Origin: a bacterium
GTDB taxonomy: Bacteria > Zhuqueibacterota > QNDG01 > DTFT01
DNA length: 47,268 nt
Direction: 5' to 3'
NCBI GenBank assembly: GCA_016933415.1
Contig: JAFGAX010000206.1
Location: 1-47,268 of the forward strand
Position numbers and translations under genes: made by a program. The notes under the pieces are model-generated. The model was not told the DNA's origin, did no database searches, and worked only from the letters and a program-made list of their open reading frames with translations. Every line of letters begins with the position of its first letter. Positions within the stretch are counted from its first letter, which is position 1. Below, one piece after another: positions 625-28,759 of this stretch.

Positions 625-3600
625 CTAGAGACCTTTCAGCACGTCGGTGATGTTGTCGCGCATTTTAACAGCCTGTTCTTTCATGTCCCCGTCGGGGCCT
701 TCCTTGATGAACCGCTGAAAATGAGAAAACGCCTTCTGCAGATCGCCCTTTCCGCGGTCCCCCGATCCCCCCTGGAACTTCTTGGCGGCCGACCGGAAGC
801 AACAGAAGCCGAGATAATAGACGCCGTGCAGGTTGTCCGGATCCCTTTTCAGAATATCCTCGAGGCAGGGAATCAGGCCTTCACATTTCTCCGGCGTGTC
901 CAGCTGGCCTGCGGGCGCGAGCGCGGCGGCCACCATGAGCTGGCGTTTATTTTCGATGACACCGGCTTCGTTCTCCTGCCGGGTCTCGCGTGTGTCCCCG
1001 GATTCGGCCCCGGAGGCCTTCGAAGCGGAGCGGAGGGCGGTCGTGATGTCCCCGTCAATGAGGGGAATCAGGGAATGCCCCTCGTCGGGTTTGCCCTTGA
1101 TCCATTGATGGTAAACGCCCAGTAATTCCTGAATGACGTTGAAGACGTCTGATGTCTTCTCCAGTTCCTTGAGGAGAAGATTCCGGGCGGTCTTGTATTC
1201 CTTCTTCCCCAGGGCGCCGGCGACCAGGGCGGAACCTTTCAGCTTCGCCAGGATCTCCCGGCTCTCCTTGACGCCCTTCGCGCTGAATCCCCGTTCGACG
1301 CATTTCTCCAGAAGGGGAACGGCCTCCTTCGCCTTTCCGATCCTCGAATAAAGCGCGGCGCACAACCGCGCGGGGCCCGTCATCTCGGGGAAATCGATGC
1401 ACCAGCGGCGCAACGCCGACACCGCTTCGAGTATCTTATCTTCCGGAAGGCTCCCCTCCCCGAAAATGGATTGTACGGATTCCGGATAGTAGGGACGCGG
1501 ATCGTCCAGCAGCCTCGCCAGGTTGCGGCCGTTCTCGTCCGGGCCTTTTTCCCACTCGGAGCAGATTTTCCTCCAGAACCTTTTCTGCGTTGAAAACGAG
1601 CCGCGGAGCGACTCGAACCGTTTCGGATCCGGTTTGTTGATGAGGGACCCCCAGATCCGCATGCAGATGATGGAGAGGAATGAATCGAGAAGTTCCGTCT
1701 TTCCCTGGAGCAGTTCGTGATATTCGTTGGCGACTTTTTTGACCGCCGATTCGACGATCTCCTTCTGGAACTGCGTCGGAATGTCGTTCAGACGATCGAG
1801 TATGGCCAGTGATTCGAACGATTTCAACTCCGTTCCCCAGTCGATGGTCGATCGGCGGGCCGAACCGTCATCTGCGGGAAGGTAGAAAAAGCCGTAGAAG
1901 AACTGGAATTTCAGCCTGTAGACGTCCTCGATCCACTGGATCAGCCGGCTTTCGTCGTCGTGGTAATACGGATTGTTTTCGAGGGTCAGCCCCTCGGTTT
2001 TTCCGCAAAACGCGACGGCGGATTGGAGCTTCGAGGCGCACGCGCCGCGGAATCCCCTGCCGATCCGTTCCGGCAGTTCGGGGAGAATCCGGTCGACGAA
2101 CTGGAGTAACGTGTCCGAGTATCCGATTTTCACCGGTTTGGCGCCGGGGTCGTCGGCGTCCTTTCCGTTCCCCTCCGGCGGCCGGCTTTTCTGCAGGGAC
2201 CGGTCGCAGCCCAGCAGAATGACGGGCGTCCGGATTTCGAACCAGCGATTGAGAAATTCCGCCTGTTTGTGGACGACAAATTCCTGGAGCGAGCCCGGAC
2301 TGTTGAGAAGGTCGATCAGCTTGCGGCCGCGGCCCTTGTGGTCGGGGGTCTTGTCCCGGCCGTCCCAGAGGAATCCGTTCGCGAAAGCCGACGCGAAATC
2401 CCGGTGAAACACGGACCGGTCGGCCGCGGAAACGCGCGGGTTGTCCGCGGCGATCGCGTGGAAGTACAGTACCTCGCAATAGGACTTCCAGGACAGAAGG
2501 GTCCTGCCGTGGTCCGAAGAGACGAGCGTGTCGGCCACGGCGATGTTTTTCAGGGCGGGCAGGCAGAGTCTGTCGATGGACAGGCAATTCCGCCAGATCT
2601 CGCGGGCCCGGTCCAGTCGGCCGAGGCGATGGAAGCCGCCGGCCGCCTTCATGTGAACGGAGAGCTCGAGGAGCCGCAGTTCGGGAAGGGAACGCTGCTC
2701 TTCGCTGTATTCTTCGAAAGTGGCCATGCTCAGGCCGACGACCCGGTCCATCTCCCCGTCCGTGATTTCGAGCGCCCGCCTCAGGCCAGTGAGTCCAGAC
2801 AGGGATGATGCGTCAATGCCGCTTTTGGACGGTTCCGATGCGCCCGCGGACGCCCCGGGCGCGGAGGCGGCCGCCGGAAGAGACAGTTTCAATAAGTGCC
2901 GGCCGAACCGGCCCTGCGCCGTCAGATGATCCTTGAAGCGGGATTCGAGTTCGGTCGACTTCCTTTCCAGGGTCTGATCCTGCGCGGCCCGGCGGCGGAC
3001 GGAGGAGATGCGCTGGACGGCCGATTCGCATTTTTTAGGCAGGGAGTCGATGAACAGCCGGATTTCCAGGGAGAGGGCGGCCTGTTCGGGCGTCAGCGTT
3101 CCGGAGGGTGCCCCGTTCCCGGTCATTTTCTTCAGGAGGGCCCAGTAGGATTCGATCCTTCCGGAGATGTCCTTGGATTCCGCCTCGAGCGCGTCCAGAA
3201 GGACCGCGGGGGATTCGGAAGCCTCCGGCTTCCCTTCCGGGGCGGGCAGCTCCGTCGCATCGATGGTCGAGGACCACTCCGCGAACCGGGGTGTGGCCGC
3301 TTCCGCCGGAGCTCCGGTCGGGACGGTCATGGCGGGCAGCCGGCCGCCGATCCGCGCATGGATCTTTTTCAGGTTTGCCGGCGGATTGAGCTCGTTGAAT
3401 GCCTTCTTGCATTCCTCCAGTTTCAGGGTGAAGGCGTTGCGCCGCATTTCCGCCGGCGCGGAGGGATGCAGCGCGGCGTCCAGATCCTCAGAGGGAATTC
3501 CGAGAATCTGCTTCTGAAGCCGGTCGACGCAGGCAACTCCGGCCGAGGCCGCTTCCGTAAGCCGGTTCAGGTCGCCGGTGAAAGTCTCGTAGTCCTTCCG

Positions 3601-4948: not shown

Positions 4949-6697
4949 CTATGCCTTTCCGAGGAGGGCCTGTAACCGCGATCCGTCGGAGATCCGGATC
5001 CCCTCCGGCGAACCGAGCGCCAGTGCGGTCATGCGGGGATCAAAACTGATCGTTCCGCCGGCGTGCGTGTAGACGATCTGGCTGTTTTTCAGGAGCGCGA
5101 ACGTGCCGTCCGGATAGATGAAGGTGGCATAGGCGTCGTCTCCCAGCGATCCGGCGCAGAAAGGCACGGCGCCCTGCGTCGAGTGGAACTTGTGGCGCGG
5201 GAGCAGCTGTTCGTCCAAAAACATCCCGCTGCCCGCGTCGTCCAGCGCCATGATCCGGTCGTTCAGCGGCATGGCGTGGAGGATGTTCGACAGATTGGAG
5301 CGCCAGGGCGTCATTATCACGTTGGGTACGTCGAATTGATAGAGTTTCTTCTCGCCGATGATCACGATGTGGTCCCTGAAGCATTTCATGCCGGCGATTG
5401 AATGTTCCACTGGAAATTGCCGGTCGGGCCGGTCGCCCTGATAGACGGTGAAACCGCCCTGGAAATCGACGATATAGACGTTGTGCCCGTCCGATTCGAA
5501 ATCCAGGATTCCCGCCGGATGCTTGAAGACCAGGGCCGTTTCGCCGGACGCGGGGTCCAGCCGGAGCAGGTCGCCGTTCCACATGCCGACGAGCATCTGC
5601 CCGCCGGCGAGAACGACGTTTCCGGGGATGGCGTACGTGGGCTCGTTCGGCTTGGGCGGGACTTCCCGGATTTCGCCGCTCTCGCGGATGAACAGGAGCC
5701 GTCCGCTCCACTCCGCGAGCACCATGCGGTCTCCGACGCTCCGGACGATCTTCGGCCTGGAGTGGATCGCCGACCGGCCGAGCGCAAGGCCGTTCCGATC
5801 GTAGAGCCGGATGGCGGAGGCGTCGATGACCGCGAAGGTCTTTCCGGACTCGAAGAAATAGACTCTCGACTCCCCGGGAGGGTCGCCGGCGGGAACGACG
5901 ACCCCCTGCGGACGGCCGCCTCCACCCGTGATCGCGGCCTCCTCCTTTTTCGTCTCCACAACGGAAAAAGCGGCGCTGGTGGCGGGCTGATAGCCTTCGG
6001 CCTTGGCCGTGAGGCTGACCCGGCCCGCGGGCTGCCGGAACGAAATGTCGGGGAAAACGGCCGTTCCGCCGGACGTTTTCTGCCTCAGCGTGCCCTGCAG
6101 ACCCTCGCAGTCGGCCGTCAATTCGACGATTCCCTCCTCGAATCCCGCCTGACCCCGGTCGGACAGCGCGACGGATACGGGCGGCAGCGTGATGTTGATC
6201 GCCGTGTCGGAGGGCTGGGTCGTCATTTCGAGAAGACGGATGTCCCGGGAGACGGACAGGCCAATGTTATGGATCAGGCGCGGGAACCAGTCATCGGGCT
6301 GTTCCTGAACGTCCAGGTAGTGGATGTGGTCGATGATGATGGGGATCTGGTCCTTGGCCTCGTGTTCCAGAAGAATCGGATTGATCTTGCCGGCCTTACC
6401 CGTCGGATCGGCCTGCAGCGCCTTCGTGAGTTCCCACCGCGTCATGCTTTTGGAGAAAAAAGTCCTGGAATACACGATGATCACGCGATGGCTGTTCATT
6501 ATCGCCTTGGCCAGCGCCTCCAGATAATTCTCCCCCGGTTTGACGCCCATGTCGGACTGGTCCAGAAACACCTTCGGGCGCTTTCCGTCGGGCATCAGGC
6601 ATTGGGTCAGGGGTGTGTAGAGGGAGTCTCGGACCCAGGCGTAATCCTCGCGCGCGTAGCTGATGAAGATGTCGTAGGTGAATTCGCTGTTTTCCAC
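4949..6697 (-). CDS. TIR-domain protein with C-terminal beta-propeller-like region
   Basis: N-term YDIFISYAREDYAWVRDSLYTPL...KVFLDQSDMGVKPGENYLEALAKAIMNSHRVIIVYSRTFFSKSMTRWELTKAL is a canonical TIR domain. C-term has repeated blade-like segments (VLAGGQMLVGMWNGDLLRLDPASGE; NVYIVDFQGGFTVYQGD). GTG start at 6697 with upstream GAGAGG. Confidence 0.9.
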   Translation of the reverse strand: MENSEFTYDIFISYAREDYAWVRDSLYTPLTQCLMPDGKRPKVFLDQSDMGVKPGENYLEALAKAIMNSHRVIIVYSRTFFSKSMTRWELTKALQADPTGKAGKINPILLEHEAKDQIPIIIDHIHYLDVQEQPDDWFPRLIHNIGLSVSRDIRLLEMTTQPSDTAINITLPPVSVALSDRGQAGFEEGIVELTADCEGLQGTLRQKTSGGTAVFPDISFRQPAGRVSLTAKAEGYQPATSAAFSVVETKKEEAAITGGGGRPQGVVVPAGDPPGESRVYFFESGKTFAVIDASAIRLYDRNGLALGRSAIHSRPKIVRSVGDRMVLAEWSGRLLFIRESGEIREVPPKPNEPTYAIPGNVVLAGGQMLVGMWNGDLLRLDPASGETALVFKHPAGILDFESDGHNVYIVDFQGGFTVYQGDRPDRQFPVEHSIAGMKCFRDHIVIIGEKKLYQFDVPNVIMTPWRSNLSNILHAMPLNDRIMALDDAGSGMFLDEQLLPRHKFHSTQGAVPFCAGSLGDDAYATFIYPDGTFALLKNSQIVYTHAGGTISFDPRMTALALGSPEGIRISDGSRLQALLGKA

Positions 6698-6749: not shown

Positions 6750-7616
6750 TTATCGGCCGAACCGGCGCAACGACGACTGGAAGTGGCCTGCCCGGACGAA
6801 ATCCATCAGGGCGTTGATTCTGTACGGGACGAACGGATGGCCGGCGTTCATGCTGATCGGCCCGGCGACCGGGGCCGTGGCCAGAAGCGGATATTGAACC
6901 GACAGGTATTTTTCAAGGTCCACGCGCCTGGCGAGCACCGCGCTTTTCAGCGCGACGGACAGGAGGGCGGAGGCGGCCTGTTTCCAGTCGCCGCACATCA
7001 GGAGGCCCATCCGGTCGCACCGGATCTCCATGCTCCGGCAGTTCGCCATGACCTGGCGGTACACGTTCATCCATTTCCGGCCGGGGAGAACGCGTTCCAG
7101 GGTCTCTTGCTGGTTGTTGTCCACGAGATCCCGGATCAGGAAGCCCAGCGACATGTCGCGGCTCCATTCCGATGTGTAGCTCAGCAGATGCCCCGTTTCA
7201 TGGCCGATCACGAAGGCCAGTTCCACCTCGCTGAGGCTTTCGACCAGGCGGGTTCCCAGCAGCATGATGGGGCGCTTCTGGCTGACCACGCTGACCGCGG
7301 ACCAGGAGTCGATTCCGCGGCGGCCCATGTCCGAGACGATGTACACCTCGGGTCTGGCCCATCCCGACTGGCTGTACAGGTATTCGAAAAGACGGTCCAG
7401 TCCGGGCAGCAGCCTGTAGTCGACCAGCAGTCCCCCGTCCAGGCCCATGATCCGGATCTTTTCGGTCCATTCGTCGTGCCTGGCCTCATAGCGGTCCAGG
7501 CCCGGCACCCGGGCCTCAACGGGGGTCAGGGGAACGGATTCCCAGAGCTGATTGAGATCGATGGCTCCCAGGCGGGGCAGGGATTCAATGCAGATGTCCT
7601 TGGAAGTGAGGTCCAC
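6750..7616 (-). CDS. M48-like zinc metallopeptidase, no obvious TM/signal
   Basis: HExxH motif in ELAFVIGHETGHLLSY plus downstream SMEIRCDRMGLLMCGD (third-ligand Glu region typical of M48). GTG start at 7616. Confidence 0.75.
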   Translation of the reverse strand: MDLTSKDICIESLPRLGAIDLNQLWESVPLTPVEARVPGLDRYEARHDEWTEKIRIMGLDGGLLVDYRLLPGLDRLFEYLYSQSGWARPEVYIVSDMGRRGIDSWSAVSVVSQKRPIMLLGTRLVESLSEVELAFVIGHETGHLLSYTSEWSRDMSLGFLIRDLVDNNQQETLERVLPGRKWMNVYRQVMANCRSMEIRCDRMGLLMCGDWKQAASALLSVALKSAVLARRVDLEKYLSVQYPLLATAPVAGPISMNAGHPFVPYRINALMDFVRAGHFQSSLRRFGR

Positions 7617-7627: not shown

Positions 7628-9727
7628 CTAGAGCACACCGTTGATCTGTTGGAGCAGACCGTCATACTGGTTGATCATCTGGCCGAGAGCCTCCTTGGCG
7701 CCCGCGGTGGTGACCGTCGACCGGGCCTTCTTGGCCTCGGACTGGGCGGCGGACACACGGTCCCGGAATCTCTGCAGCTCGTACCGGCTGGTGAACTTCG
7801 AACCGGACTTCAGGACCGCCATGATGGAGAGGAATTCCTTTCCGTGCTCGTCCACGACGGCCTTGTCCTTGAACTGCGAGCGGAAGGTGGTGCTCATCTG
7901 TTCGACCTGTCCGAGATTCCGGTCCACGGCCTGTTCCAGCTGGTCGAGGTTCTTCCGGGCGCCGTCCGTGATCAATTTCCGGTTCATGGCCGGGATGTCC
8001 CGTTTCAGCTTGCGCAGATCCTCGGTGATTCCCTCAAGCTTGGATTCCGAATCGATTCCCCCCTTCGCCCGCTCCATGATCGACTTGAAGCGTTCCGTGG
8101 CGCCGTTGATGACGACGACGTCCTTCTTCTGGTCTTCGATGACCTTGCTGAGGGACTGCAGGGCCTTCAGGTTGCGGTCCACGGCCTGATCCAGCTGAAG
8201 CAGAGTTTTCTTCGATTCGTCCAGGGCCATCTTCGGTTTCGCCTGGGTCACCTGTTTCTTGACTTCCTTCATCCGCTTGAACAATTCCTCGAGGACCTGG
8301 GGGCTGTCGATCCCCTTCTTGGCCCTCTCCATGATCGACACGAATTCCTTGATGATCGCGTTGACCCGGCCGATCTCCTCCTGACGCTTGAGGATGGCCG
8401 AGCGGAGGCCCGTGAAAAAGCCGATCGCCTGTTCGACCTGCGCCAGAAGCTGCGCGGGAACGGGCTGATCCGCATCGGCGGTGGCGAGTTTGGCGAACTG
8501 CCGGGTTTTTTCCAGCTCGGACAGGATCGTGTCGATGTCCGGCAGACGCTGTTTCTGGAAGGCGTCGTTGAACTGCCGGAAACGGCAGGCGGCGAGCAGA
8601 AAGCAGAGGAAGACATAATCCGGCGTAACCTGGAGGGCCGACATGAGCACCTGCTCGGCGCCGGCAAAATTTCCTCGGTTCATGTGCTGCTGGGCGACCA
8701 GGATTTCGTCCCGCACGATCAGTGACTGGAGCTTTTTCCTTTCGTCCAGCGACCCGCCCATTTTCACGTCGGCGATCTTTTTTGAGCCGCCCAGCCGGCC
8801 CAGCAGGCCGCCGGCGGAAAACTGCCGCAGGTAGGCGTCGAAGAGCGTGTATTCGACGGTTCCCTTGAAGCGGTCGTCCGCTTTTCCGAGCGCTTTCAGC
8901 GATTTCCCGAATTCCTCCTTCTTGAAATGCTGAATCGCCGGCTGAAGGGCGAGGTACAGGAGCTGGGATTCCAGATCGTTCTTCAGGCCCGTCAGGATCG
9001 GCGGCACGCGGTCGCCGGCGATCCGGATTCCCTCCAGGACGCATTCATACGCCGCGGGCACGTTTCGCTGTCCCCGGAGCACGATGGCCTTGAACGCGTA
9101 ATATTCGGCGCGCTGCGGATCCAGCTGCATCAGTTCGGTCAGCTGGGTGAAGAGGATGTTCGCGCTGATCATCATGAGGATGGGGAACTTGAGGTAGACC
9201 TGGCCGCAGGCCCTCGTTTTCAGGGCGGCGATCAGATCGTCGAGCGGCTTGCCCGTGCGGGCGGGATCGATCGAGGAAAGAATCCGCAGGGCGCTGATCT
9301 GGTTGTTCAGCGTGCCGATCGGCTTGTCCGTGTACAGGATGCACAGCGCCTTCAGGTACAGCGCTTCGGGGTGACCCTTCTTTTTAGCCAGATAGGCGTC
9401 GAGTTTTTGGGAGGCCGGCAGATACTCCTTCTTCTGGATGTGGGCCTTCGCCTCCTGAAGCAGGGCGAAGTCCACGTCGATGAGGCCGCCCGCGGTGAGA
9501 AGTGTGTCGTCCGGGAGGATTTCCCCAAGACGCAGCGAGTCGTCCGTCTTGGCGCTGTCGGCCATTTTGTTGATCTCGGCCTGAACGTCAAAACCGTCCA
9601 GCTTCGTCTTGCAGGGATCGATGACGGGGCCTTTGAGCACCAGTCCGCCTTCGATCTTGGGGATCGGGGTGGATACGGACAGCAGTTCCGGCGCGTCGAC
9701 GAACTTGTTTTCCGGGGCGGGGGCCAT
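7628..9727 (-). CDS. TPR plus coiled-coil protein with three 85-aa C-terminal repeats
   Basis: Start at MAPAPENKF. TPR-like AKAHIQKKEYLPASQKLDAYLAKKKGHPEALYLKALCILY. Repeated FxSIMERAKxGIDS...QLxQAVDRNL blocks. Confidence 0.8.
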   Translation of the reverse strand: MAPAPENKFVDAPELLSVSTPIPKIEGGLVLKGPVIDPCKTKLDGFDVQAEINKMADSAKTDDSLRLGEILPDDTLLTAGGLIDVDFALLQEAKAHIQKKEYLPASQKLDAYLAKKKGHPEALYLKALCILYTDKPIGTLNNQISALRILSSIDPARTGKPLDDLIAALKTRACGQVYLKFPILMMISANILFTQLTELMQLDPQRAEYYAFKAIVLRGQRNVPAAYECVLEGIRIAGDRVPPILTGLKNDLESQLLYLALQPAIQHFKKEEFGKSLKALGKADDRFKGTVEYTLFDAYLRQFSAGGLLGRLGGSKKIADVKMGGSLDERKKLQSLIVRDEILVAQQHMNRGNFAGAEQVLMSALQVTPDYVFLCFLLAACRFRQFNDAFQKQRLPDIDTILSELEKTRQFAKLATADADQPVPAQLLAQVEQAIGFFTGLRSAILKRQEEIGRVNAIIKEFVSIMERAKKGIDSPQVLEELFKRMKEVKKQVTQAKPKMALDESKKTLLQLDQAVDRNLKALQSLSKVIEDQKKDVVVINGATERFKSIMERAKGGIDSESKLEGITEDLRKLKRDIPAMNRKLITDGARKNLDQLEQAVDRNLGQVEQMSTTFRSQFKDKAVVDEHGKEFLSIMAVLKSGSKFTSRYELQRFRDRVSAAQSEAKKARSTVTTAGAKEALGQMINQYDGLLQQINGVL

Positions 9728-9740
9728 GGTGAATCCTTTT

Positions 9741-9968
9741 CTATTCGATATCGATGTTTTCCGGTTCGGGCACTTTTTCCAGCAGATGCTCGGCGGATTG
9801 CCGGCAGAGCTCGTATTCCTTCTCCTGGGTGATGTCCGCAAGCTGCAGAATGGAGGAGACGATGTTCATCTGCTCCGTGGAGAACTCCTGGGGTTTCGTG
9901 ACGCTTTCCGAGTCGATTTCCAGCGCTTCGAGGAGACTCTTTTTATCGAGGGCGCGGGCTTTGGCCAT
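9741..9968 (-). CDS. Small (75 aa) conserved-looking operon protein
   Basis: MAKARALDKKSLLEALEIDSESVTKPQEFSTEQMNIVSSILQLADITQEKEYELCRQSAEHLLEKVPEPENIDIE. Fits precisely between two operon genes with short spacers. Confidence 0.7.
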   Translation of the reverse strand: MAKARALDKKSLLEALEIDSESVTKPQEFSTEQMNIVSSILQLADITQEKEYELCRQSAEHLLEKVPEPENIDIE

Positions 9969-17323: not shown

Positions 17324-17368
17324 GAAAAATGTACTCTGACTTGACGATTGCGGGCCGCACGTCGGGAA

Positions 17369-18506: not shown

Positions 18507-20630
18507 TCACTCCCCGTTGCTGATCACCGTCCGGCGGCGTTCCCGGATGCAGGAGGCGACGTACTGGCCGATTTTTCGGGCCACCGCGGCCGCGTCGGTC
18601 AATTCGTCCGGAAGCACCGGTATGATCTTGTCCACCAGGTTTTCCAGCCCGCTTTCCTTTTCCTGCCCGAGCGCCACCATGGTGGTGTGCAGCTTCCCCT
18701 TCATCTCGGCGTTCAGGGAGGCGAACACCGCCTGGACTTCCTCCCTTCCGGAGCGTGAATTCGGGAAGGAGCGGTTCCACTGGCAGTCGGTGATCAGGAT
18801 CAGGTACACCATGCGTCCCCGGGCAAGGGACCTGGCCTCCCGCATGAAATAGGCGATCGAAACGGCATCGGACTGCATGCCCGTTCCCGTGTCCGGAAGC
18901 TCGGGCAGGGTCCGCATCGCGTCCAGCCGGTACAGGACGGGCGTTTTCTGCGGATGGAATATCCACTGCACCAGGGGGCCGGACAGTCCGGGACGGACCT
19001 CCCCGCTGTGGTACAGGCCGGCCATCAGCTGGATTTCGCTGCGGGCGGTGGATTTCAGCCAGGCCGCGGTCAGGACCTTCAGCATCCGCATCTGCCGGCG
19101 GTTCAGCGAGCCGGATCCGTCGCAGGCGATGGCCAGAACGGGCCGGCCCCGGCGGTCCATGCGGTCCCGCATCCGGTAGCGTTTGAAGACGGCCGGGGAG
19201 AAATCGCCCAGGGCCAGCCGTGCCGTGTCCAGCGACCCGGACGTGCGCAGCCGGTCCGTTTCGGGAAGCTTCTGCACGTTCGGATAGAGGCTGCGCCGCA
19301 GCGCCTCGGTGACGGGCGCCGCCTCCTCCTCCAGCCCGAGGCACGAGGACGGGTCGTCCGAGAGCGGAACCGTTCGGTCGAAAATTTCCGCAGTGACGGT
19401 TTTCCCGTCGGCCAGCGGCACTTCGATCTCCTGTCCGTCGGACGGACTTCCTTCCATCAGCCCCCTGTCGAAGATGTTGAAATGCAGCATACGCTCGATC
19501 AGGTCGGACCGCAGATCCTCCCAGGACCGCTGCCGGATTCCCGCGGCGCGCAGTGTCATGATGAACTTGAGCAGAGCGGTCTCCGCGGGGTCGTTTCCCT
19601 CGGGGCCGCCGTCCCGCTTTCCGGACAGCAGGTTGTTTATCATGAGCATGGCCATCTGTTCGACGATACTGTCCGGATCGATCAGAAGGGGCGGGTTCAG
19701 CCGGTCCAGCGGCTGCAGCGGCTGCTCCCCGGCCGGCTCGTCCGGATCCGCGTTCATGACGTTGAGAAGGTCGGGATTGCCGGGTCGCTCCTTGTGCAGG
19801 ATCTGTTTGTGGGCCGGGTTCATCTTCACCGGCGCGGTCACCAGGGGCGCCAGCGCCTCGACCAGGTCGCGGCCCCACCGGTTCCCCAGTTCCACGAGCA
19901 GTCCGGGTTCCGTCCGGCCCAGCGCGTCGAAATGCGGGCGGGAGGCCGTGAGGATCGCGTCCAGCATCCGGCGCGCAACCGGATGCAGCTCCAGCCGGCC
20001 GAAGTCGGGCAGCAGCTCCCCGTAGAGCACTCCGTTGAAGACCACGTCGATCACGGTGCGGAACCGCAGGTCCTGCTGCGACGCCATGAACAGGCGATGG
20101 ATCTCGAGCGAGGAGAACGCCGGCAGGGCGGACAGCTCCTGGAGCAGAATCCGGATGCGGACCGCCTTCTCGATGATCTTGACCATCAGCAGCCGGTGCT
20201 TGTTCCCCGCGGGCGGTTCCGGGTCGTCCTCCTCCGATTCGGGATCGGCCCCGAGATGCAGCGACAGGACCTTGTCGAAGAAGACGGCCTCGTACTCCAG
20301 ATAGCCGGTCAGCCCGATCGCGGCATACGCAGCGGCGACCGCGGGGTACTGCGTGTACAGCGGGCTGAGTTGGGGTTTCACCTCGAAGGACGACTCGGGA
20401 TCGTGCCCGGCGAGCCGGTGAACCGCCGCCTGGATCTGGGCCGCCCGGCGGTAGAAGAGGTTCTGGGCCGGCAGCCGTTCCGCGGGATCCAGATTCGGCC
20501 GGAACGCGTCGCCCAGGGTGATTCCCGCCCAGTCCGATTTGGATCTCCTTTTCCGGTAATAGGAGGAGTACCAGCCCCGTGAGGAGTTTTCCGCCTGCCA
20601 TGAGGTGTCGTTTTTTTTCGTCTGCTTCAC
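18507..20630 (-). CDS. vWA (MIDAS) domain protein, MoxR partner
   Basis: RGRPVLAIACDGSGSLNRRQMRMLK (DxSxS MIDAS), DTGTGMQSDA and LILITDCQW motifs. Adjacent to MoxR. Confidence 0.85.
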   Translation of the reverse strand: MKQTKKNDTSWQAENSSRGWYSSYYRKRRSKSDWAGITLGDAFRPNLDPAERLPAQNLFYRRAAQIQAAVHRLAGHDPESSFEVKPQLSPLYTQYPAVAAAYAAIGLTGYLEYEAVFFDKVLSLHLGADPESEEDDPEPPAGNKHRLLMVKIIEKAVRIRILLQELSALPAFSSLEIHRLFMASQQDLRFRTVIDVVFNGVLYGELLPDFGRLELHPVARRMLDAILTASRPHFDALGRTEPGLLVELGNRWGRDLVEALAPLVTAPVKMNPAHKQILHKERPGNPDLLNVMNADPDEPAGEQPLQPLDRLNPPLLIDPDSIVEQMAMLMINNLLSGKRDGGPEGNDPAETALLKFIMTLRAAGIRQRSWEDLRSDLIERMLHFNIFDRGLMEGSPSDGQEIEVPLADGKTVTAEIFDRTVPLSDDPSSCLGLEEEAAPVTEALRRSLYPNVQKLPETDRLRTSGSLDTARLALGDFSPAVFKRYRMRDRMDRRGRPVLAIACDGSGSLNRRQMRMLKVLTAAWLKSTARSEIQLMAGLYHSGEVRPGLSGPLVQWIFHPQKTPVLYRLDAMRTLPELPDTGTGMQSDAVSIAYFMREARSLARGRMVYLILITDCQWNRSFPNSRSGREEVQAVFASLNAEMKGKLHTTMVALGQEKESGLENLVDKIIPVLPDELTDAAAVARKIGQYVASCIRERRRTVISNGE

Positions 20631-20646: not shown

Positions 20647-21660
20647 TTAAAACAGGTTGCCCTGTATGGTGGTCGTTTCGTCTTCCTCCAGCTTCAGGCC
20701 GAAGACCTGGTTGAAGACGCTGTTGTTCAGTTTCCGGTCCTCCAGGCTGGCGTTTCCCATCAGCGTGGTCTGCGCGATCTGCTGCATGCTCATGTGGGGC
20801 ATGCAGCCAGCCATGCGCAGGAACGCCAGGTATCCGTAGATGGAGGGGGGGGGCACCGACTGAAGCCTGCCCTCCACGCGGTGCTTCCGGATTTCCTGGC
20901 CCATTGCGACGACCTTGATGAGAAGATCCCGTTTGATTTCCGGCACGCCGGCCTGGCGGACCAGGTGCTGAAGCACCAGAACCTCCAGGTCGGCCGGAAG
21001 GTAATCGAGCGTGACGTTCATGGAAAACCGGCGTTTCAGCGCGTCGTCGAGCGTGACCAGGGTGTGCGTGGATTCGTTCTCCGCCTGATAGTTGCTGTCC
21101 GATATCCATCCGATCGATCCCCCCTGAACCGTGGCACCGTCCGGAAGCAGAATCTGCCCCTTGGTCATCAGGTCAAGCAGGCCCCCCTGCACGCTCGATG
21201 AATGGACACGCCCCATCTCCCGGAGCCAGATCAGGGGATAGGCGGATCCGGAGGACGCTTCCGCGTCCTTCAGGGACTCCACCAGGCGGCTCATTTCGTC
21301 GTACGTGGTGCCGCCCTTCAGAGACCGCCGCTGGTACAGTTCGCCGGGCGTCTCGTACACGGCCATTTCGACGGGGTATACCTTCAGCGGTCTGGCGGGA
21401 AGTCCGAGGCGGTCGCAGACCTGGCCGAAGTTGTCCGGAACCCGATGCAGCGCCTCGATCAGCGACGTCTTAGCGCTGCCGGTCGGACCGCTCAGATGGA
21501 TGAATTCCCGGGACGCGACGCCGTAGACGAGCGATTCCAGGATCCATTTCAGGATGAACAGCGGATTTCCCCCGGGGGCCGGGAGGAGTTCGATCAGATC
21601 CTCAGCGCCGGCCTTACGGTACTCCTTTTCCTTCGAGACGTGATACATCTGCTTGGACAT
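20647..21660 (-). CDS. MoxR-like AAA+ ATPase
   Basis: Walker A HLSGPTGSAKTSLIEAL; Walker B-like region YPLIWLREMGRVHSSSVQGGLLDLMTKGQILLPDGATV; sensor/Arg-finger region LDDALKRRFSMNVTLDYLP. Confidence 0.85.
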   Translation of the reverse strand: MSKQMYHVSKEKEYRKAGAEDLIELLPAPGGNPLFILKWILESLVYGVASREFIHLSGPTGSAKTSLIEALHRVPDNFGQVCDRLGLPARPLKVYPVEMAVYETPGELYQRRSLKGGTTYDEMSRLVESLKDAEASSGSAYPLIWLREMGRVHSSSVQGGLLDLMTKGQILLPDGATVQGGSIGWISDSNYQAENESTHTLVTLDDALKRRFSMNVTLDYLPADLEVLVLQHLVRQAGVPEIKRDLLIKVVAMGQEIRKHRVEGRLQSVPPPSIYGYLAFLRMAGCMPHMSMQQIAQTTLMGNASLEDRKLNNSVFNQVFGLKLEEDETTTIQGNLF

Positions 21661-21676: not shown

Positions 21677-23947
21677 TCAATCCGTTTGGATGACCAGACG
21701 CTTCTCCGGATCCACGTCCACCACCCAGGCGGACGGGGATCCGTCCCGTTTCCTACTCAGGAAATCCATGAACGCTTCGGCGGCCAGAGACCGCGCATGC
21801 TCCAGAAGCGCCCGGGCGCCCATCGACTGAAATCGGTTTTCCATCCCGGCGATGACGCATTGACCGACCGAGGGTGCCACCCGGACTTCGTCCGCGCGCA
21901 ACTGCATGCGGGACGCGGCGGCCCGGATCGCGTCCCGGACGGCCCGTTCGACGATCAGCACCAGGGCGGGACCGTCAAGGGGCCGGAACAGGACCGGTGT
22001 CCCGATTCTCGAGAGAAAGGCGCCCGAGAAGAGCTGCTTGATTTCAGCAAGCACGCTGCCCCGGACGTCCCGGTCGGAGGCCTCGTCCTGAAATCCCATC
22101 CGTTTCCGTATCCCCTCGTCCCGGCCGTTGGGGAGATTGATGGTGAACGCGAAGAGGAGATTGGCGCACGAGAACATGTTGCCGGCCGCGCTCTGTCCTT
22201 CCCCGGTCTCCAGGATCTGGAGAAATATGTCCGCGATCGCGGAGCGGACGTGCGGGGGCGCGTGGTCCAGATCGCTCACTTCCACGAGTGCGCCGGCGTG
22301 ATGTTTGGCCGCCTGCTCAAGCCGGCCGCTTTGGAAGGATCCCACGATGCCGCGCCCGGAGCCCAGGAGCTGGGCCGAGGCCGTGTAGAAGTCCGGAATG
22401 CTGGCCGCGTCGATGTTGATATAGGGGACATCCAGTTCCCTCGCCAGCACGACGGCGCTCTGCGATTTGCCCGTGGCGGGCGTTCCCTGCGCGCAATACC
22501 GTATCGGCTGGTGCGAGGGACGCGTCAGGCATTCCATCCGCAGTCGCGCCACCAGCCGGTCGATCGCGTCGTCCTGGGCGACGATTTCCGTCTTCATCGT
22601 GTCCGCGAGGCCGGCCCGGGTCAGGACGGCGTTCATCCGCTCCTGGACGCGGTCCAGGCGTCCAGCGCGCGGGCGGTGGGCCAGGCCGGAAAACGTCTCG
22701 GATAGTCCGTGCACCGCCGCGACGAAAGCGCCCGGGGGCGGAAATCCCGCGCAGCCCTTCTGCGCGAGGTTCAACTCGCGCTGCGCCAGCACCGACAGAA
22801 CGCGCACGCGGCCCGGAGCGGGAATCTCATTCAGGGCCGCTCGGACTCGCTCGAACAGCGCGGATTTCGCGTGCGCCGGCAGTCCTCCCGCTTTCTGGCC
22901 CGCCCGGTCGACGGCGAACCGGATCAGGGAATCTTCCGGAATGTCCGGGGCGTGCCGGATCACGGGCAGCAGCGGATCGTTTATTCCGCCCTGCCCGCCG
23001 TGAAACACCGCCTGCAGCTGTCCGTAACTTCCTGTGAACACGACCAGCCGACGCGTCCCCGAAAACTGCTGCAGCATTGTCTGGACCTCGTTGGCCATTT
23101 CATAGGGGTTGATCCCGAAGTTCAGACAGGACGCGTGCACGACCACCGTGCCCGGGGCCTTGTTGGCCGCTTCCACGAGCATTTTGCCGTTGACGGACGG
23201 CAGAACCAGGCGGCCCATCGTCGCGCCCTCCGCGGACAGGTGCCTGGATATCTGGGCCAGCAGGTAGTCGCCCTCGACCGGATGCCGGGCCGCGACCGCC
23301 AGGCAAAGGGAGCCGTTCATGAAATCGACCGACTGACGGCACCAGACGTCCAGGACCGGGGCGAAGGCGCTGTCCGATTCCTTCGCAGGCAGGATGCATT
23401 CCAGAACGTCCGACACATCCCGATAGCGTCCGAGAAGATCCGAATCCGCCGCTTCCTCGGGCAGATCCTCCTGCAGCGCCAAGGCCGCGGCCTCCAGGTT
23501 TTTCAACTCCGCGAGGAACGCGGCCGAGCGCGTGGGCGTCATCGGACTGGCCTGGACGCGCAGTTCGGCACACAGGGACGCCGTTCCGGCGTCGGGCGGC
23601 GCGGCCGGTGGAATCAGGCGGACTCTGTCGCCGAAACGGGACAGATGCTCGAACAGGTTTTCCGGGGAGACCCGGATCGAGCGGGGCGCCTTCAGCAGTT
23701 CGAACTGGATGCGGAGCACCGATTCTTCGGCGGTCTTTCCGTAAACCGCGCAAAGGCCCTTTCTCTTCTGATCCAAATCGCGGGAGACCGTGCGGAAGGA
23801 CTTCCCGTCCGCGGCGACGGACATCTCGACCGGGACCACCTGCCGGATCAGGCCGATGACCTGATGCACAACGAGAGCGGCATCGGTCCCGTCGTGGTTT
23901 TTCACGTCCCAGCCGGGCACGGTCGACAGTTTCGGATCACCAGACAT
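21677..23947 (-). CDS. ClpA/ClpB-like AAA+ protein with novel N-terminal region
   Basis: Walker A QGTPATGKSQSAVVLARELDVPYINIDAASI; GALVEVSDLDHAPPHVRSAIADIFLQILETGEGQSAAGNMFSCANLLFAFTIN resembles a Clp D2 AAA module; FLSRIGTPVLFRPLD. Start MSGDPKLS with GGGGGAACGC RBS. Confidence 0.8.
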   Translation of the reverse strand: MSGDPKLSTVPGWDVKNHDGTDAALVVHQVIGLIRQVVPVEMSVAADGKSFRTVSRDLDQKRKGLCAVYGKTAEESVLRIQFELLKAPRSIRVSPENLFEHLSRFGDRVRLIPPAAPPDAGTASLCAELRVQASPMTPTRSAAFLAELKNLEAAALALQEDLPEEAADSDLLGRYRDVSDVLECILPAKESDSAFAPVLDVWCRQSVDFMNGSLCLAVAARHPVEGDYLLAQISRHLSAEGATMGRLVLPSVNGKMLVEAANKAPGTVVVHASCLNFGINPYEMANEVQTMLQQFSGTRRLVVFTGSYGQLQAVFHGGQGGINDPLLPVIRHAPDIPEDSLIRFAVDRAGQKAGGLPAHAKSALFERVRAALNEIPAPGRVRVLSVLAQRELNLAQKGCAGFPPPGAFVAAVHGLSETFSGLAHRPRAGRLDRVQERMNAVLTRAGLADTMKTEIVAQDDAIDRLVARLRMECLTRPSHQPIRYCAQGTPATGKSQSAVVLARELDVPYINIDAASIPDFYTASAQLLGSGRGIVGSFQSGRLEQAAKHHAGALVEVSDLDHAPPHVRSAIADIFLQILETGEGQSAAGNMFSCANLLFAFTINLPNGRDEGIRKRMGFQDEASDRDVRGSVLAEIKQLFSGAFLSRIGTPVLFRPLDGPALVLIVERAVRDAIRAAASRMQLRADEVRVAPSVGQCVIAGMENRFQSMGARALLEHARSLAAEAFMDFLSRKRDGSPSAWVVDVDPEKRLVIQTD

Positions 23948-23990
23948 GCGTTCCCCCGTGTGTGTGTTGAGTTGGCTCCATCCGATCATG

Positions 23991-24006
23991 GACAAAAAAA
24001 GGGCCA
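23991..24006 (-). promoter_or_regulatory. Sigma54-type (-24/-12) promoter candidate for the minus operon
   Basis: Minus strand TGGCCC-TTTTT-TTGTC, compared with consensus TGGCAC-N5-TTGCA. GG and G spacing exact. About 33 nt inferred 5'UTR before the RBS and ATG at 23947. Confidence 0.55.
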
Positions 24007-24014
24007 TCCTGCAC

Positions 24015-24047
24015 AATCCCCTGAAAAACATCCGACTACAGGGGATT
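24015..24047. promoter_or_regulatory. Perfect 9-bp dyad AATCCCCTG-N15-CAGGGGATT between divergent promoters
   Basis: 24015-24023 and 24039-24047 are exact reverse complements. Confidence 0.55.
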
Positions 24048-24066: not shown

Positions 24067-24095
24067 TTGATTTAGGCGGTGAAATACGCTATATT
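24067..24095 (+). promoter_or_regulatory. Sigma70-like promoter for the sigma54-activator gene
   Basis: TTGATT (24067-24072) N17 TATATT (24090-24095). Confidence 0.6.
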
Positions 24096-24156
24096 CAACA
24101 ATATTCGCTTTCCAAGATCAACCGCCCCGATTCAAACATCACGCCTCCGGAGGGAT

Positions 24157-25812
24157 ATGGAATACCAGGCCCTGCGATTCGACGATTCGGACCATCCGGT
24201 AAGCTGCACCATCCGGGCTGAGAACGCCGAGGATATAGTGGAAATCCGGAAGACGCGGCTTCCCGCCATTTATCTTCTGTCGGACGACGCCATTGACGCA
24301 TTCACCGTGCATCCGACCCTGATCCGGGACCGCGGCACCAAGCACAGGAAAAAGGCGCTATCCGACCTGCTTTTGGGGTACGACCGGACTTGTCTCATCC
24401 GGGGATCCTATGAAGGCACGCGCCAGCTGGTCCGGAGCTGCAAGGCGTTTCTGGCGAGAGCGCGGGATCAGGGCGACCGGAACGCGTTCCTGATCTTCAT
24501 CCCGGCGGACGCGTTCATCCGGCTGTGGACCCGGTACAGCGGCGTCGGCACCGCCGGCCGGAAAAGTCGATCGGGCCGCGGCACCGCCGCGCCGTCCGAT
24601 CTTCCGGGCCTTCTGGGGGACGAGGAGGTTCCCCCGCAGCTGCGGGAAAGCTATATCGGCGACTCCCCCGATGTGAACCTGGTCCGGCGGCTGATCCTCA
24701 TCGCCGCCCGATGCGAGAATCCGACCCTGATTCTCGGCGAGTCGGGCACCGGAAAGGAAATCGTGGCGAGGAGCATCCACCAGCTGAGCGCGCGGCGCGG
24801 CCTCCGGTTCGAGGCGGTGAACTGCGGTGCCCTTCCATCGAACCTCCTCGAATCGACGCTGTTCGGCCACAAAAAGGGCGCGTTCACGGACGCCAGACGG
24901 GACCGAAAGGGATCGTGGGAGCTGGCTTCGAACGGAACACTCTTTTTGGACGAAATCGGAGATCTTTCACTGGAGAATCAGGTCAAAATTCTGCGTGCGT
25001 TGTCGACGAACCGGATACGCCCGCTCGGCGCGGAGACCGACGTGACGGTTCACGCGAGCGTCATCGCCGCCACGAATCGCGACCTGTTCGCCATGGTCCA
25101 GTCCGGCCACTTTCGGGACGATCTGTATTACCGGCTCCGGTCCTTTCTGATATTCACGCCGGCGTTGAGAAACCATCCGGACGACATCCCGCTTATGGCC
25201 AACCAGTTCTGGCGGAGGATCACCAAGGTCAATGCCGCCGTCCTGCCGGCGGCCGTGCTGGCCGAGATGAAAGCGTATCCCTGGTACGGAAACGGCCGCG
25301 AGCTCAAGAACGTGCTGTCCTTTCTGAACGGTCTCTTCGGCAGGCATCCGCTGGGCGTGGAACATTTCAGGGCCGTCACCCGCTACCAGCGGGGCGTCGG
25401 CGGATCCGGAGCGGGCGAACGCGGCCCGGCCGGCCTCGCCCTGCATCGCGCAGAGGCCCTGCAGCATCTTAAAAGAGCGGACGAGGTCCTTCGTGCCGTG
25501 GAAATGGCGGTCCAGCCGTACCTGAAACGGACTCGGACCGCGCTCCCGGAGATGAAGGTCACACTCTCCCGAATCGAGAACCGGATGCTCGAACTGGAGG
25601 CGCTGTGCCTGTATCCCGTTCTCTTCGTCAATCCCGCTTTGTTCGAGCGCGTCCGCGATCTCCACGAGGACCTTTCCGGCTTCGCGCGGCATCTTGAAAA
25701 GTCGGCCGGCGGCGTCAAGGGATACTGGCTCAGGCATCTGGAAGATCCCTTCCAGCGGACCCGGCGGATGGTTTTTCAGGAAGTGGCCAAGATCATGCGG
25801 TTCCGGAAATAA
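24157..25812 (+). CDS. Sigma54-interacting transcriptional activator (AAA+) with non-receiver N-terminal domain
   Basis: LILGESGTGKEIVARSIHQLSARRGLRFEAVNCGALPSNLLESTLFGHKKGAFTDARRDRKGSWELASNGTLFLDEIGDLSLENQVKILRAL. ATG at 24157 lies downstream of the predicted promoter; the 24079 GTG would lie inside it. Confidence 0.92.
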   Translation: MEYQALRFDDSDHPVSCTIRAENAEDIVEIRKTRLPAIYLLSDDAIDAFTVHPTLIRDRGTKHRKKALSDLLLGYDRTCLIRGSYEGTRQLVRSCKAFLARARDQGDRNAFLIFIPADAFIRLWTRYSGVGTAGRKSRSGRGTAAPSDLPGLLGDEEVPPQLRESYIGDSPDVNLVRRLILIAARCENPTLILGESGTGKEIVARSIHQLSARRGLRFEAVNCGALPSNLLESTLFGHKKGAFTDARRDRKGSWELASNGTLFLDEIGDLSLENQVKILRALSTNRIRPLGAETDVTVHASVIAATNRDLFAMVQSGHFRDDLYYRLRSFLIFTPALRNHPDDIPLMANQFWRRITKVNAAVLPAAVLAEMKAYPWYGNGRELKNVLSFLNGLFGRHPLGVEHFRAVTRYQRGVGGSGAGERGPAGLALHRAEALQHLKRADEVLRAVEMAVQPYLKRTRTALPEMKVTLSRIENRMLELEALCLYPVLFVNPALFERVRDLHEDLSGFARHLEKSAGGVKGYWLRHLEDPFQRTRRMVFQEVAKIMRFRK

Positions 25813-25836: not shown

Positions 25837-26277
25837 ATGGACGACCCGAGGCCTTTTTCGCTTTCCGTCAAGAGTCTGGTGTTCGACGCGGACCGCAGGT
25901 GCCTGATCCTGAAGCGATCGGACCGTAACAGGAACTACCCCGGGAAATGGGAGCTTCCCGGGGGCAAACTGTCGCCGGGCGAAACGTTCGCGGAAGCGCT
26001 GATCCGGGAAGTGCGGGAGGAGGCCGGCCTGCACATCGAGATCGACCGCCTGGCGGGCGCCGTCGAATCGGAGCTTCCGGAGTGGCGGATCGTGCACCTG
26101 TTCATGGAGGCCCGCGTCGTCCGGGGGGACATCCGGCTGAGCCCGGAACACACGGAGTACGGCTGGGTGGCCGTCGACGACCTGCCGCTGAAGGACATGC
26201 CCGAGCATTTCGTTCGGTTTGTCAGGGCATACCGGCGAAAGGAGGAGCGCCATGAGGATACGACCGGCACCGGTTGA
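25837..26277 (+). CDS. NUDIX hydrolase
   Basis: Complete Nudix box GGKLSPGETFAEALIREVREEAGLHIE. Confidence 0.93.
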   Translation: MDDPRPFSLSVKSLVFDADRRCLILKRSDRNRNYPGKWELPGGKLSPGETFAEALIREVREEAGLHIEIDRLAGAVESELPEWRIVHLFMEARVVRGDIRLSPEHTEYGWVAVDDLPLKDMPEHFVRFVRAYRRKEERHEDTTGTG

Positions 26278-28759
26278 GTCGCAGATCCGCCAGTACCGGG
26301 GTGAATACGGGCGGTACCGGAAGTACGCGGAGGTCCTCAGGGAAATACTCGAGGCGGCGTGCCGGGACCGGGCGCCGCTGGCCATCGTTCAATCCAGGGC
26401 CAAGACGGTGTCCAGCTTTGCCGAAAAGATCGTTCGTAAACCGACCGCGGATCCCATTCATGATTTCACCGATCTCTGCGGAGCCCGGGTGATCACCAAC
26501 ACGCGGAACGAGGTGAAACGCCTGTGTCGTTTCATCCGGGACCATTTCAGGATCGACGAGGAAAACAGCCAGGACACGTTCGAGCGGCTGAAGACTTCGG
26601 AATTCGGCTATCTGTCGGTCCATTATATCGTGCAGATCGACAGGCCGAGCGTGCTGGGCGTCCGCATCCCGAAGGAGATCGGCGGCAGAAAGGCGGAGAT
26701 CCAGGTGCGCACCCTGCTCCAGCACGCCTGGGCCAACATGAGCCACGACCTGATCTACAAGAACCGTTTCGACGTGCCGCAGCGGTGGACTCGGAATCTG
26801 GCGAGAACGTCGGCCCTGCTGGAACAGGCCGACTCCGTTTTCGATGACGTGCTCCGGGAGCTGGAGGCCTACCGGTTTCATTACGGCGTCTTCTCGGGAA
26901 AATCGAAGTGGGAGGAGGAATTCGCCAGTCTCGAGAGGATCATCCGGAACGAGCCGGATGAGACCAACAAGCCCTCCATTGCGCTGCGTATCGCCCGCAT
27001 GCACAAATCCAGGTGGAACTGGGACGGAATCGTCGCCTGTTTGCGGCCCTACGGAGGCAGGGAGTGCCGCGAGAGGCCGGAAATCGTCCTGGAATACGGA
27101 TATGCGCTCTGCCGGAAGCACAGGGACCGGCCGCTCGGCCGGGACTATCTCAGGGGGCAGGCGTTGATGGCCGAAGCGGTCCGGCTGAGCACGGACGAAA
27201 ACCGGGCCGACGCGCTGAGCCGTCATGCGTGGTCCTACGAGAACATCAAAGGCCGTGAAACGAAGGCGCGGGAGCTCTATCGGCTGGCGCTGGACGCCGA
27301 TCCGAAGGATCCCTACGTGTTCGCTTCGTTCCTCGAGTATGAACTGTACTGCAGCCGGGACGACCGGTTCATTGAGTACATGAAACCGTCGCTCCTGCGG
27401 GCTGTCGACGCCTGCCGGTCCCATGTCCGGGCGGGGATCGAGCTGCCCTGGGCCTTCTTCACGATGGGGAAGCTGCATCTGCTCCTGAACCAGCCGTATG
27501 AAAGCCTGTCCGCCTACGCCGCCGCCGTCCGGAGCTGCCTCGGAAAGGAGGCGTGCGGCCCGCGAGACGTGTTTCAGGAACAGCGGGATTTCCTGGTCCG
27601 GATCAACACTGCGCGGGAATGGCCCGCCGCGCATCGTTGGGTCGAGAGAATCCTCATTCTGGCGCAGGCCGTCCGCTTCGGTGACTCCCGGGCCGTCGGT
27701 CAATTGAACGCTTTGCGCAGAAGGCGGGCGACCTTTGCCGTACCCGTCGTGATCGTTGCGGGCGGAACGGACGCATCGGTCCAAGCCCGGATGGAGGAAT
27801 ACCGGCCTGCGCTGACGCGGGCCTTTGACGGTTTTTCCGGAACCGTCATTTCGGGCGGGACCCGGGCCGGTATCCCCGGGCTGATCGGGGAAATCGCGCG
27901 GAACGCCTCACGACGAAAGGGATACGGATTCGCGGCCGTGTCCTATCTCCCCGGAAAGGTTCCGGCCGGCGTCGAGATCGATCAGCGGTACCGCGAGCGC
28001 ATCGTTCTCGATGGGGACGATTTCACGCCGGAACAGCCGATCCAGAACTGGATCGACATGATCGCATCGGGGATCAACCCGTCCGACGTCAGGGTGCTGG
28101 GCATTAACGGGGGCCGGATCGCCGCGTTCGAATACAGGCTCGCCCTGGCGCTGGGCGCCCGCGTCGGGATCGTCCACTCCAGCGGGAGGGCCGAGTCGGA
28201 AATTCGGCAGGATTCCCGTTTCAGCGCGCCGGACAATCTTCTGTGGCTTCCGCTGGATGACATGACCCTCCGGGCGTTCGTCAATCCCGGAAAGACAGTC
28301 ATGTCGTCCGACCATCTGGACAGGGCGGGAAGGGCCATTCATGCCGCGTTCCTGTCGGAGAACCGCCATCGGGTCGCCGATCCGGGCATGCTTCCGTGGG
28401 AAGAACTGGCGGAGGATCTGAGACAATCCAACCGGGACCAGGCCGCGTACGCCGTCCAGATTCTGGGGGCCGTCGGTTACGGCGTCCGGAAATCCGCGGC
28501 CGCGCGGGTTCCCGTCCGGTTTTCGAAAAAGGAAATCGAAATCATGGCGGAGATGGAACACGGCCGGTGGGTCGTGGAGCGGCTCTGCAGCGGATGGCGG
28601 TACGGGGAAAAAAGGGATCCGGTGAATCGGATCAGTCCCCACCTGGTGCCATGGAAGGAACTCGCGGATAAATTCAAGGAATATGACTGCATCGCAGTGC
28701 GCAAATGGCCGGATCTGCTGAAAAATGCGGGATTGGAGATTTATCGGTTGAAACGATGA
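26252..28759 (+). CDS. RelA/SpoT-type nucleotidyltransferase - TPR - LSDAT/SLOG - RyR multidomain protein
   Basis: N-term DFTDLCGARVITNTRNEV...FGYLSVHYIVQID...AEIQVRTLLQHAWANMSHDLIYK (RelA/SpoT synthetase); middle TPR; VVIVAGGTDA...GTVISGGTRAGIPGLIGEIA...VRVLGINGGRIAAFEYRLALALGARVGIVHSSGRAESEI (LSDAT/TRPM-type SLOG); C-term EIEIMAEMEHGRWVVERLCSGWRYGEKRDPVNRISPHLVPWKELADKFKEYD (RyR). RBS GGAGG at 26241. Confidence 0.88.
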   Translation: MRIRPAPVESQIRQYRGEYGRYRKYAEVLREILEAACRDRAPLAIVQSRAKTVSSFAEKIVRKPTADPIHDFTDLCGARVITNTRNEVKRLCRFIRDHFRIDEENSQDTFERLKTSEFGYLSVHYIVQIDRPSVLGVRIPKEIGGRKAEIQVRTLLQHAWANMSHDLIYKNRFDVPQRWTRNLARTSALLEQADSVFDDVLRELEAYRFHYGVFSGKSKWEEEFASLERIIRNEPDETNKPSIALRIARMHKSRWNWDGIVACLRPYGGRECRERPEIVLEYGYALCRKHRDRPLGRDYLRGQALMAEAVRLSTDENRADALSRHAWSYENIKGRETKARELYRLALDADPKDPYVFASFLEYELYCSRDDRFIEYMKPSLLRAVDACRSHVRAGIELPWAFFTMGKLHLLLNQPYESLSAYAAAVRSCLGKEACGPRDVFQEQRDFLVRINTAREWPAAHRWVERILILAQAVRFGDSRAVGQLNALRRRRATFAVPVVIVAGGTDASVQARMEEYRPALTRAFDGFSGTVISGGTRAGIPGLIGEIARNASRRKGYGFAAVSYLPGKVPAGVEIDQRYRERIVLDGDDFTPEQPIQNWIDMIASGINPSDVRVLGINGGRIAAFEYRLALALGARVGIVHSSGRAESEIRQDSRFSAPDNLLWLPLDDMTLRAFVNPGKTVMSSDHLDRAGRAIHAAFLSENRHRVADPGMLPWEELAEDLRQSNRDQAAYAVQILGAVGYGVRKSAAARVPVRFSKKEIEIMAEMEHGRWVVERLCSGWRYGEKRDPVNRISPHLVPWKELADKFKEYDCIAVRKWPDLLKNAGLEIYRLKR

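Follow-up and report, generated by a model that had tools for sequence, protein, structure and literature searches.

Introduction

In Thoeris, the TIR protein ThsB works with a SIR2-SLOG protein or with another effector. TRPM2 and the TRPM2 chanzyme combine an ADP-ribose (ADPR) site in MHR1/2 with a NUDT9-H domain, and LSDAT, a domain of the SLOG superfamily, was reportedly named by Burroughs et al. in 2015 (NAR). Among phage RyR (PF02026) proteins, RyDEP contacts 2'/3'cADPR through H75, W78, and D117, with H75 and D117 forming a ribose-contacting His/Asp pair (PMC13232231). Six of the eight phage RyR homologues tested formed stable complexes with this nucleotide; RyDEP itself cleaves it, whereas the other tested homologues did not, despite conserved residues (PMC13232231). 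MoxR-vWA-centric ternary conflict systems have also been described (Kaur 2020, PMC7159879). The same study covers GAP1-N2 GTPase conflict systems, which also use Hsp70 and GrpE, and the effector-swapping logic of conflict systems (PMC7159879).

Here, we analyzed a bacterial contig of 47,268 nucleotides, referred to below as the window, in which a TIR-encoding chaperone operon lies divergent from a gene fusing a RelA/SpoT-type synthetase to LSDAT and RyR domains. An earlier note on this DNA had proposed a two-armed immunity system, with a TIR-made signal sensed by LSDAT, an alarmone-type output, and a NUDIX off-switch. Our literature search found no paper linking LSDAT with alarmone synthetases or a RelA output with a TIR/SLOG/RyR pathway; Burroughs et al. 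2015 may mention the architecture. The finding joins two questions: what ligands bacterial RyR domains sense, and whether TIR immunity uses stringent-response chemistry as an output.

Results

Organization of the locus

The window, which is the entire contig, contains a minus-strand, 14-gene Hsp70/GrpE/AAA operon running from 24031 to 625 and a divergent plus-strand arm in the order σ54 activator, NUDIX, RelA-TPR-LSDAT-RyR. The operon starts with an AAA+ protein ending in a ClpA/ClpB-like domain, followed by a MoxR-like AAA+ protein, a vWA-like protein with a DGSGS motif, three unknowns, GrpE, and Hsp70. Downstream of Hsp70 come another unknown, a TM-TPR protein, a TPR protein, an M48 protein, the TIR protein with its β-rich tail, and a 1440-aa TPR protein. 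The annotated features are as follows.

1 to 492, plus strand: second RyR protein, C-terminal part, PfkB-like-AAA-RyR type, cut by the contig end; lies immediately beyond the interval given in the earlier note (625 to 28759)
625 to 4947, minus strand: large TPR protein closing the operon
4949 to 6697, minus strand: TIR protein with a C-terminal beta-rich region (propeller-like by eye); TIR domain at 6278 to 6670
6750 to 7616, minus strand: M48-type metallopeptidase domain
7628 to 9841, minus strand: TPR protein
9972 to 12014, minus strand: TM-TPR protein
12041 to 13615, minus strand: uncharacterized, 524 aa, kinase-like only by eye
13584 to 15794, minus strand: Hsp70 (DnaK-like)
15605 to 16495, minus strand: GrpE co-chaperone
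16411 to 17031, minus strand: uncharacterized operon gene, 206 aa, kept in genome G006
17013 to 17372, minus strand: uncharacterized operon gene, 119 aa
17369 to 18499, minus strand: uncharacterized operon gene, 376 aa, kept in G006
18507 to 20630, minus strand: vWA-like protein, by motif only (DGSGS, MIDAS-like)
20647 to 21660, minus strand: MoxR-like AAA+ ATPase, weak profile match
21677 to 24031, minus strand: AAA+ protein opening the chaperone operon; its C-terminal AAA_2 is ClpA/ClpB-like
24079 to 25812, plus strand: sigma54-type AAA+ activator; conserved start probably ATG 24157
25837 to 26277, plus strand: NUDIX hydrolase, MutT-like, intact Nudix box
26252 to 28759, plus strand: RelA-TPR-LSDAT-RyR protein of 835 aa, counted from the likely ATG (the ORF opens at TTG 26219; Pfam, AlphaFold2 model, Foldseek, 16 relatives)
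26393 to 26767, plus strand: RelA/SpoT-type synthetase domain, SAS1/RelQ-like (Pfam, alignments)
27743 to 28216, plus strand: LSDAT (SLOG) domain with a TRPM2 MHR1/2-like fold (Pfam, Foldseek)
28535 to 28741, plus strand: RyR (Repeat12) domain (Pfam, Foldseek)

Pfam searches recovered, well above chance, every domain that the earlier note had placed here (TIR, NUDIX, RelA/SpoT, LSDAT, and RyR). The overlap it had seen between the NUDIX and RelA genes measures 26 nt from the likely ATG at 26252 and 59 nt from the TTG ORF start. The sigma54-type activator lies between the two arms, and 19.5 kb separate the RelA gene from the TIR gene, which occupies the distal end of the divergent operon in another transcription unit. 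For the vWA-like protein, neither Pfam nor PDB profiles gave a match beyond the DGSGS motif, and no propeller was detected in it; the kinase-like protein had no match in the PDB profile search. Outside the two arms, positions 29459 to 36624 hold a 1604-aa protein with about 15 PKD domains, then a LysM-FecR-Glucodextran_B protein and histidine kinases, which look unrelated.

The activator carries a GAFTDA loop and a novel N-terminal domain; no HTH was detected. The σ54 promoter consensus matched the window 37 times against 59 expected, with none at the divergent region. Relatives of the activator adjoin RyR genes at loci L009 and L014; L107, L110, and L113 hold sigma54-type AAA proteins that are more distant. 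The NUDIX domain was well supported (E 2.3e-21) and has a proline at +16 after the Nudix box; most partner NUDIX proteins likewise have a proline 15 to 16 residues after the box. A proline at this spacing is a hallmark of ADPR pyrophosphatases.

The TIR protein matched TIR_2 with E 2.7e-18 and contains MTRWELTKAL; no second TIR_2 was found in the genome (G000, 76% complete). The glutamate that the earlier note had read as catalytic in this motif is where such a residue would be expected: E89 occupies the conserved TIR position, is invariant in nine aligned TIRs, and aligns with the Glu of PdTIR (3h16). Four residues before it, the window TIR has a methionine where many NADase TIRs have tryptophan. 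TLR TIRs that are not NADases conserve the Glu position too, so E89, though required for NADase activity, does not suffice to predict it. In genome G007, the neighbor of a RelA-LSDAT-RyR gene encodes a fusion of a TIR-like and a phosphofructokinase domain (L010:2947-5316).

Synthetase, LSDAT, and RyR domains in one polypeptide

Within the ORF at 26219 to 28759, Pfam identified RelA_SpoT (E 1.1e-18), LSDAT_prok (E 5.1e-7; 29.6 bits, cut-off 25.4), and RyR (E 1.4e-14), with a helical TPR-like region between RelA and LSDAT. With 13 relatives as input, AlphaFold2 gave a model of the 835-aa protein at pLDDT 84.7 and pTM 0.80. When compared with the PDB by Foldseek, this model matched small alarmone synthetases (5ded, 2be3, and 6fgk), CapRel (7ztb), TPR proteins, human RyR3 Repeat12 with adenine nucleotides and dantrolene (9ls7 and 9l9b), and a B. 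thetaiotaomicron/human RyR chimera (6uhi).

The synthetase residues R49, K51, D74, Y120, E149, and Q151 are invariant in 17 of 17 sequences and align with YjbM/RelQ structures. The set comprises the ATP-site Arg and Lys, the Mg2+-binding Asp, the guanosine-stacking Tyr, and the catalytic Glu. Judged from these residues, the RelA part is a predicted small alarmone synthetase, the product of which could be (p)ppGpp, (p)ppApp, or pyrophosphorylated RNA.

For the LSDAT domain modeled alone (pLDDT 89.1), Foldseek ranked first the structure of the TRPM2 chanzyme containing ADP-ribose (E 5e-8), and the other top matches were almost without exception TRPM channels. The parallel to TRPM2 drawn in the earlier note is therefore upheld by the fold. 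It needed structure to be seen, since sequence profiles connected LSDAT to TRPM only at a nonsignificant E 0.38. In the 13-sequence alignment, the Gly-rich loop residues G504, G536, G540, G617, and G620 are invariant.

H770, W773, and D812 of the RyR domain correspond to RyDEP H75, W78, and D117. Across the relatives, H770 and D812 are invariant (17/17) and W773 is Trp in 15 of 17; the spacing is that of RyDEP (0, +3, +42), with one-residue shifts in a few relatives. The position of RyDEP H100 (+25) is Ser in the window protein, Ser, Asn, or Thr in most members, and His in some relatives only; thus, affinity or chemistry may differ from RyDEP. The RyR domain at the left edge of the window has the complete H/W/H/D set with exact spacing. 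Full-length relatives of this PfkB-like-AAA-RyR protein were found at L013:839-3436 and L009:3210-5831. The earlier note had placed the sensing on LSDAT; in light of the more recent work on phage RyR proteins, the RyR domain is no weaker a candidate for reading cADPR (PMC13232231).

Relatives are linked to TIR and NUDIX genes

A single scan of 85,462 species genomes yielded 12 full-length RelA-LSDAT-RyR relatives, with members in Chloroflexi, KSB1, Thiocapsa, WOR-3, Coriobacteriaceae, Desulfosudis, and a Thermoplasmata archaeon. Contigs of the same phylum added four more (16 in total). Full-length relatives were not found in plasmids or phages, where the RelA part alone matched.

We compared gene neighborhoods with those of 57 plain-RelA control loci. 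A TIR gene lay within 6 kb of 7 of the 16 relatives and of none of the controls; for the first-pass relatives the count was 6/12 against 0/57 (Fisher 8e-6). All TIR calls were checked with Pfam except at L112. From genome-wide TIR_2 counts, a nearby TIR was expected in 0.10 genomes and was observed in 6 of 11 (P about 1e-10). Three genomes gave a single TIR_2 each: in the archaeon it is encoded right next to the relative, in Thiocapsa it lies 4 kb away, and in G000 it shares the window. G019, which encodes one relative, had no TIR_2 match. NUDIX genes were found within 6 kb of 9/16 relatives, with the same count within 1 kb, versus 1/57 controls. Another RyR protein occurred within 6 kb in 4/16 versus 0/57, and TM-RCK channel-like genes in 7/16 versus 0/57, the RCK profile having been trained partly on these same loci.

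Genes for TIR proteins cluster in defense islands, so their linkage here is an association and no proof of a shared pathway. The earlier note had held that its proposal would fall if the two arms lacked phyletic linkage. This objection fails, because TIR genes in general are strongly associated with RelA-LSDAT-RyR genes, as are NUDIX genes. The specific link to the TIR-propeller gene was not borne out, as that gene and its chaperone operon occur in only 2 of 82 phylum genomes; RelA-LSDAT-RyR occurs in nine.

Two further kinds of neighbor were seen. TM-TrkA_N (RCK) channel-like proteins recur beside RelA-LSDAT-RyR (L022:8639-10510, L029:11254-13188, L109:2702-4003, and L111:11572-12873), and some are fused to a RyR domain, making them possible RyR-gated bacterial channels. 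DUF4062-type proteins lie near 7/16 of the genes versus 0/57 controls (L024:9531-10136, L109:1-2478, L012:1-3401, and L030:13644-19037). We considered these as hidden TIRs; because the hhalign probability was only 1.3, they were left out of the TIR count.

The arm is exchanged between loci

G006 is the sole other genome of the 82 with the chaperone operon, which is split there over three contigs; it belongs to the same order as the window genome. Identity to the window is 58% for the TIR-propeller protein, 77% for M48, 72% for Hsp70, and 76% for the MoxR-like protein. As in the window, the σ54 and AAA genes diverge; behind σ54, however, come a second TIR and a stand-alone RyR, in which Gln replaces the catalytic His. 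The NUDIX and RelA-LSDAT-RyR pair sits on a different contig. RelA-LSDAT-RyR is thus swapped for TIR plus RyR. The two-armed idea of the earlier note is accordingly sustained in its domains, folds, and TIR and NUDIX linkage, but its specific TIR partner is not conserved, the arm in G006 carrying σ54–TIR–RyR.

In G007, the σ54 gene is followed by a PfkB-like-AAA-RyR gene and NUDIX, divergent from a Ubl/JAB/AAA operon. An arm of σ54 plus RyR is thus found next to more than one kind of large operon, and RelA-LSDAT belongs to a group of parts that can be exchanged. Such exchange fits effector swapping in conflict systems, with the RelA part as a swappable output. The operon at L009:8062-20000, divergent from a sigma54-RyR-NUDIX arm, is a Ubl-like conjugation operon with ThiF E1, JAB, proteasome-like AAA, and ClpB-like AAA genes. 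At L107:1154-3172 and L110:871-4636, GHKL/Hsp90-like ATPases (by eye only) lie beside sigma54-like and RyR genes and may mark another chaperone-type conflict operon.

Discussion

We propose, at slightly less than an even chance, that the sigma54-NUDIX-RelA-LSDAT-RyR arm is an effector cassette that reads the signal of a nucleotide conflict system of the TIR type, probably anti-phage. The catalysis, ligand, signal direction, output, and biological role that we infer would be the following. Chaperone/AAA machinery would register infection or proteotoxic stress, upon which the TIR of the divergent operon would act, converting NAD+ into an ADP-ribose or cyclic-ADPR signal. RyR, LSDAT, or both would bind this nucleotide, and the TPR linker might pass relief of inhibition to the synthetase domain. 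The synthetase would then make an alarmone, or pyrophosphorylate another target as CapRel/toxSAS do, and growth would stop; the NUDIX enzyme would clear the signal or the alarmone. A wider version, possible but doubtful, is an immune pathway of prokaryotes in which cyclic ADP-ribose made by a TIR acts through a ryanodine-receptor-type (plus TRPM2-type) sensor to switch on an alarmone synthetase, with TM-RCK-RyR, PfkB-like-AAA-RyR, and stand-alone RyR proteins coupling the same reader to other outputs. Several observations count against a TIR relay. Nine of the 16 relatives have no TIR within 6 kb, TIR types differ among loci, and the window TIR is distant (19.5 kb) and in another transcription unit. 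The insufficiency of the Glu for NADase activity, the replacement of H100 in most RyR members, and defense-island clustering also weigh against it.

The main alternative reads the same domains differently. RyR, and LSDAT with it, might be an enzyme that hydrolyzes cADPR-type signals to ADPR for cleavage by NUDIX, making the cassette an off-switch or recycling arm of a TIR system while RelA tunes recovery growth. The invariant His/Asp dyad (RyDEP H75/D117; 17/17), the full residue set of the left-edge RyR, and the adjacent NUDIX genes (9/16, most of them encoding the proline 15 to 16 residues after the box) agree with such chemistry. However, the other phage homologues tested do not cleave 2'/3'cADPR despite conserved residues (PMC13232231), most members have lost H100, Gln takes the place of the catalytic His in the stand-alone RyR of G006, and a pure eraser paired with an intact synthetase would be odd; we consider this reading unlikely. 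A simple toxin-antidote pair of NADase TIR and NUDIX was rejected, as it leaves RelA and RyR unexplained.

It is rather improbable that RelA-LSDAT-RyR-NUDIX is a self-contained stress regulator reading ADPR, NAD+, or nucleotide status independently of any TIR, with an incidental position in defense islands. The nine TIR-less neighborhoods, NUDIX as the commoner partner, G019, and TM-RCK genes as frequent as TIRs would suit it, but TIR enrichment far exceeds genome-wide density (P 1e-10) and is absent from plain-RelA loci (0/57), and the patchy multi-phylum distribution resembles that of conflict systems. Quite unlikely, in our estimate, is that the window juxtaposes two independent systems, one a TIR NADase operon with a chaperone-set threshold, the other an RyR-type cassette that pairs with several operons. 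The unequal occurrence of the two (2/82 versus nine genomes), the related sigma54, PfkB-like-AAA-RyR, NUDIX cassette divergent from the Ubl/JAB/AAA operon in G007, and locus L113, with sigma54, RelA-LSDAT-RyR, NUDIX, and RCK where the chaperone operon was not seen, all point that way. Against this, sigma54 and the first AAA gene form a conserved divergent pair in both operon-bearing genomes (about 46% identity each), and RyR domains are present in both arms.

If the effector-cassette reading is true, an NAD-derived signal would be relayed into an alarmone, one nucleotide signal being converted to a second. Sensor modules of the animal calcium channels TRPM2 and RyR would have bacterial immune relatives that share a single polypeptide, and the enzymatic output of that protein could be measured. 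It would also suggest that host RyR domains are cADPR receptors mimicked by phage RyR proteins. With the linkage result, the idea becomes testable using a single purified protein.

The system would be a variant of TIR-linked nucleotide conflict systems, apparently undescribed, although Burroughs et al. 2015 may list the architecture. As in Thoeris, a TIR gene is linked to a protein combining SLOG-superfamily and effector domains; here, however, the effector is a RelA-type synthetase, LSDAT is of the TRPM type, RyR is added, and the TIR is in another operon. No Thoeris model scored above its cut-off (ThcB4, 22 versus 220 bits), PADLOC gave candidate-family matches only, and no ThsA-type effector (SIR2, Macro, or TM) was found in the arm. 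MoxR-vWA ternary systems share AAA/MoxR-like and vWA-like proteins, TPR, a propeller-like region, and TIR, but the window has a different set (Hsp70-GrpE-M48-ClpB-like) in which no GTPase was found. The defining MoxR and vWA families gave no profile match; bpMoxR reached E 0.14 in the G006 homologue and was unlisted for the window protein. With TRPM2 and its chanzyme the locus shares the LSDAT fold and a coupled NUDIX protein, yet by Pfam the window protein lacks a TRP channel domain, and NUDIX is a separate MutT-type protein. With phage RyDEP, the window protein has in common the Repeat12-type fold and, of the four ligand residues, His, Trp, and Asp; with Ser at H100, it is a candidate member of that family. 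It is host-encoded, fused to RelA-LSDAT, and has relatives in which H100 is usually replaced. Last, CapRel/toxSAS and SAS1/RelQ have the same synthetase fold and active site, but where their regulatory part is an antitoxin-like domain or none, here it is TPR-LSDAT-RyR.
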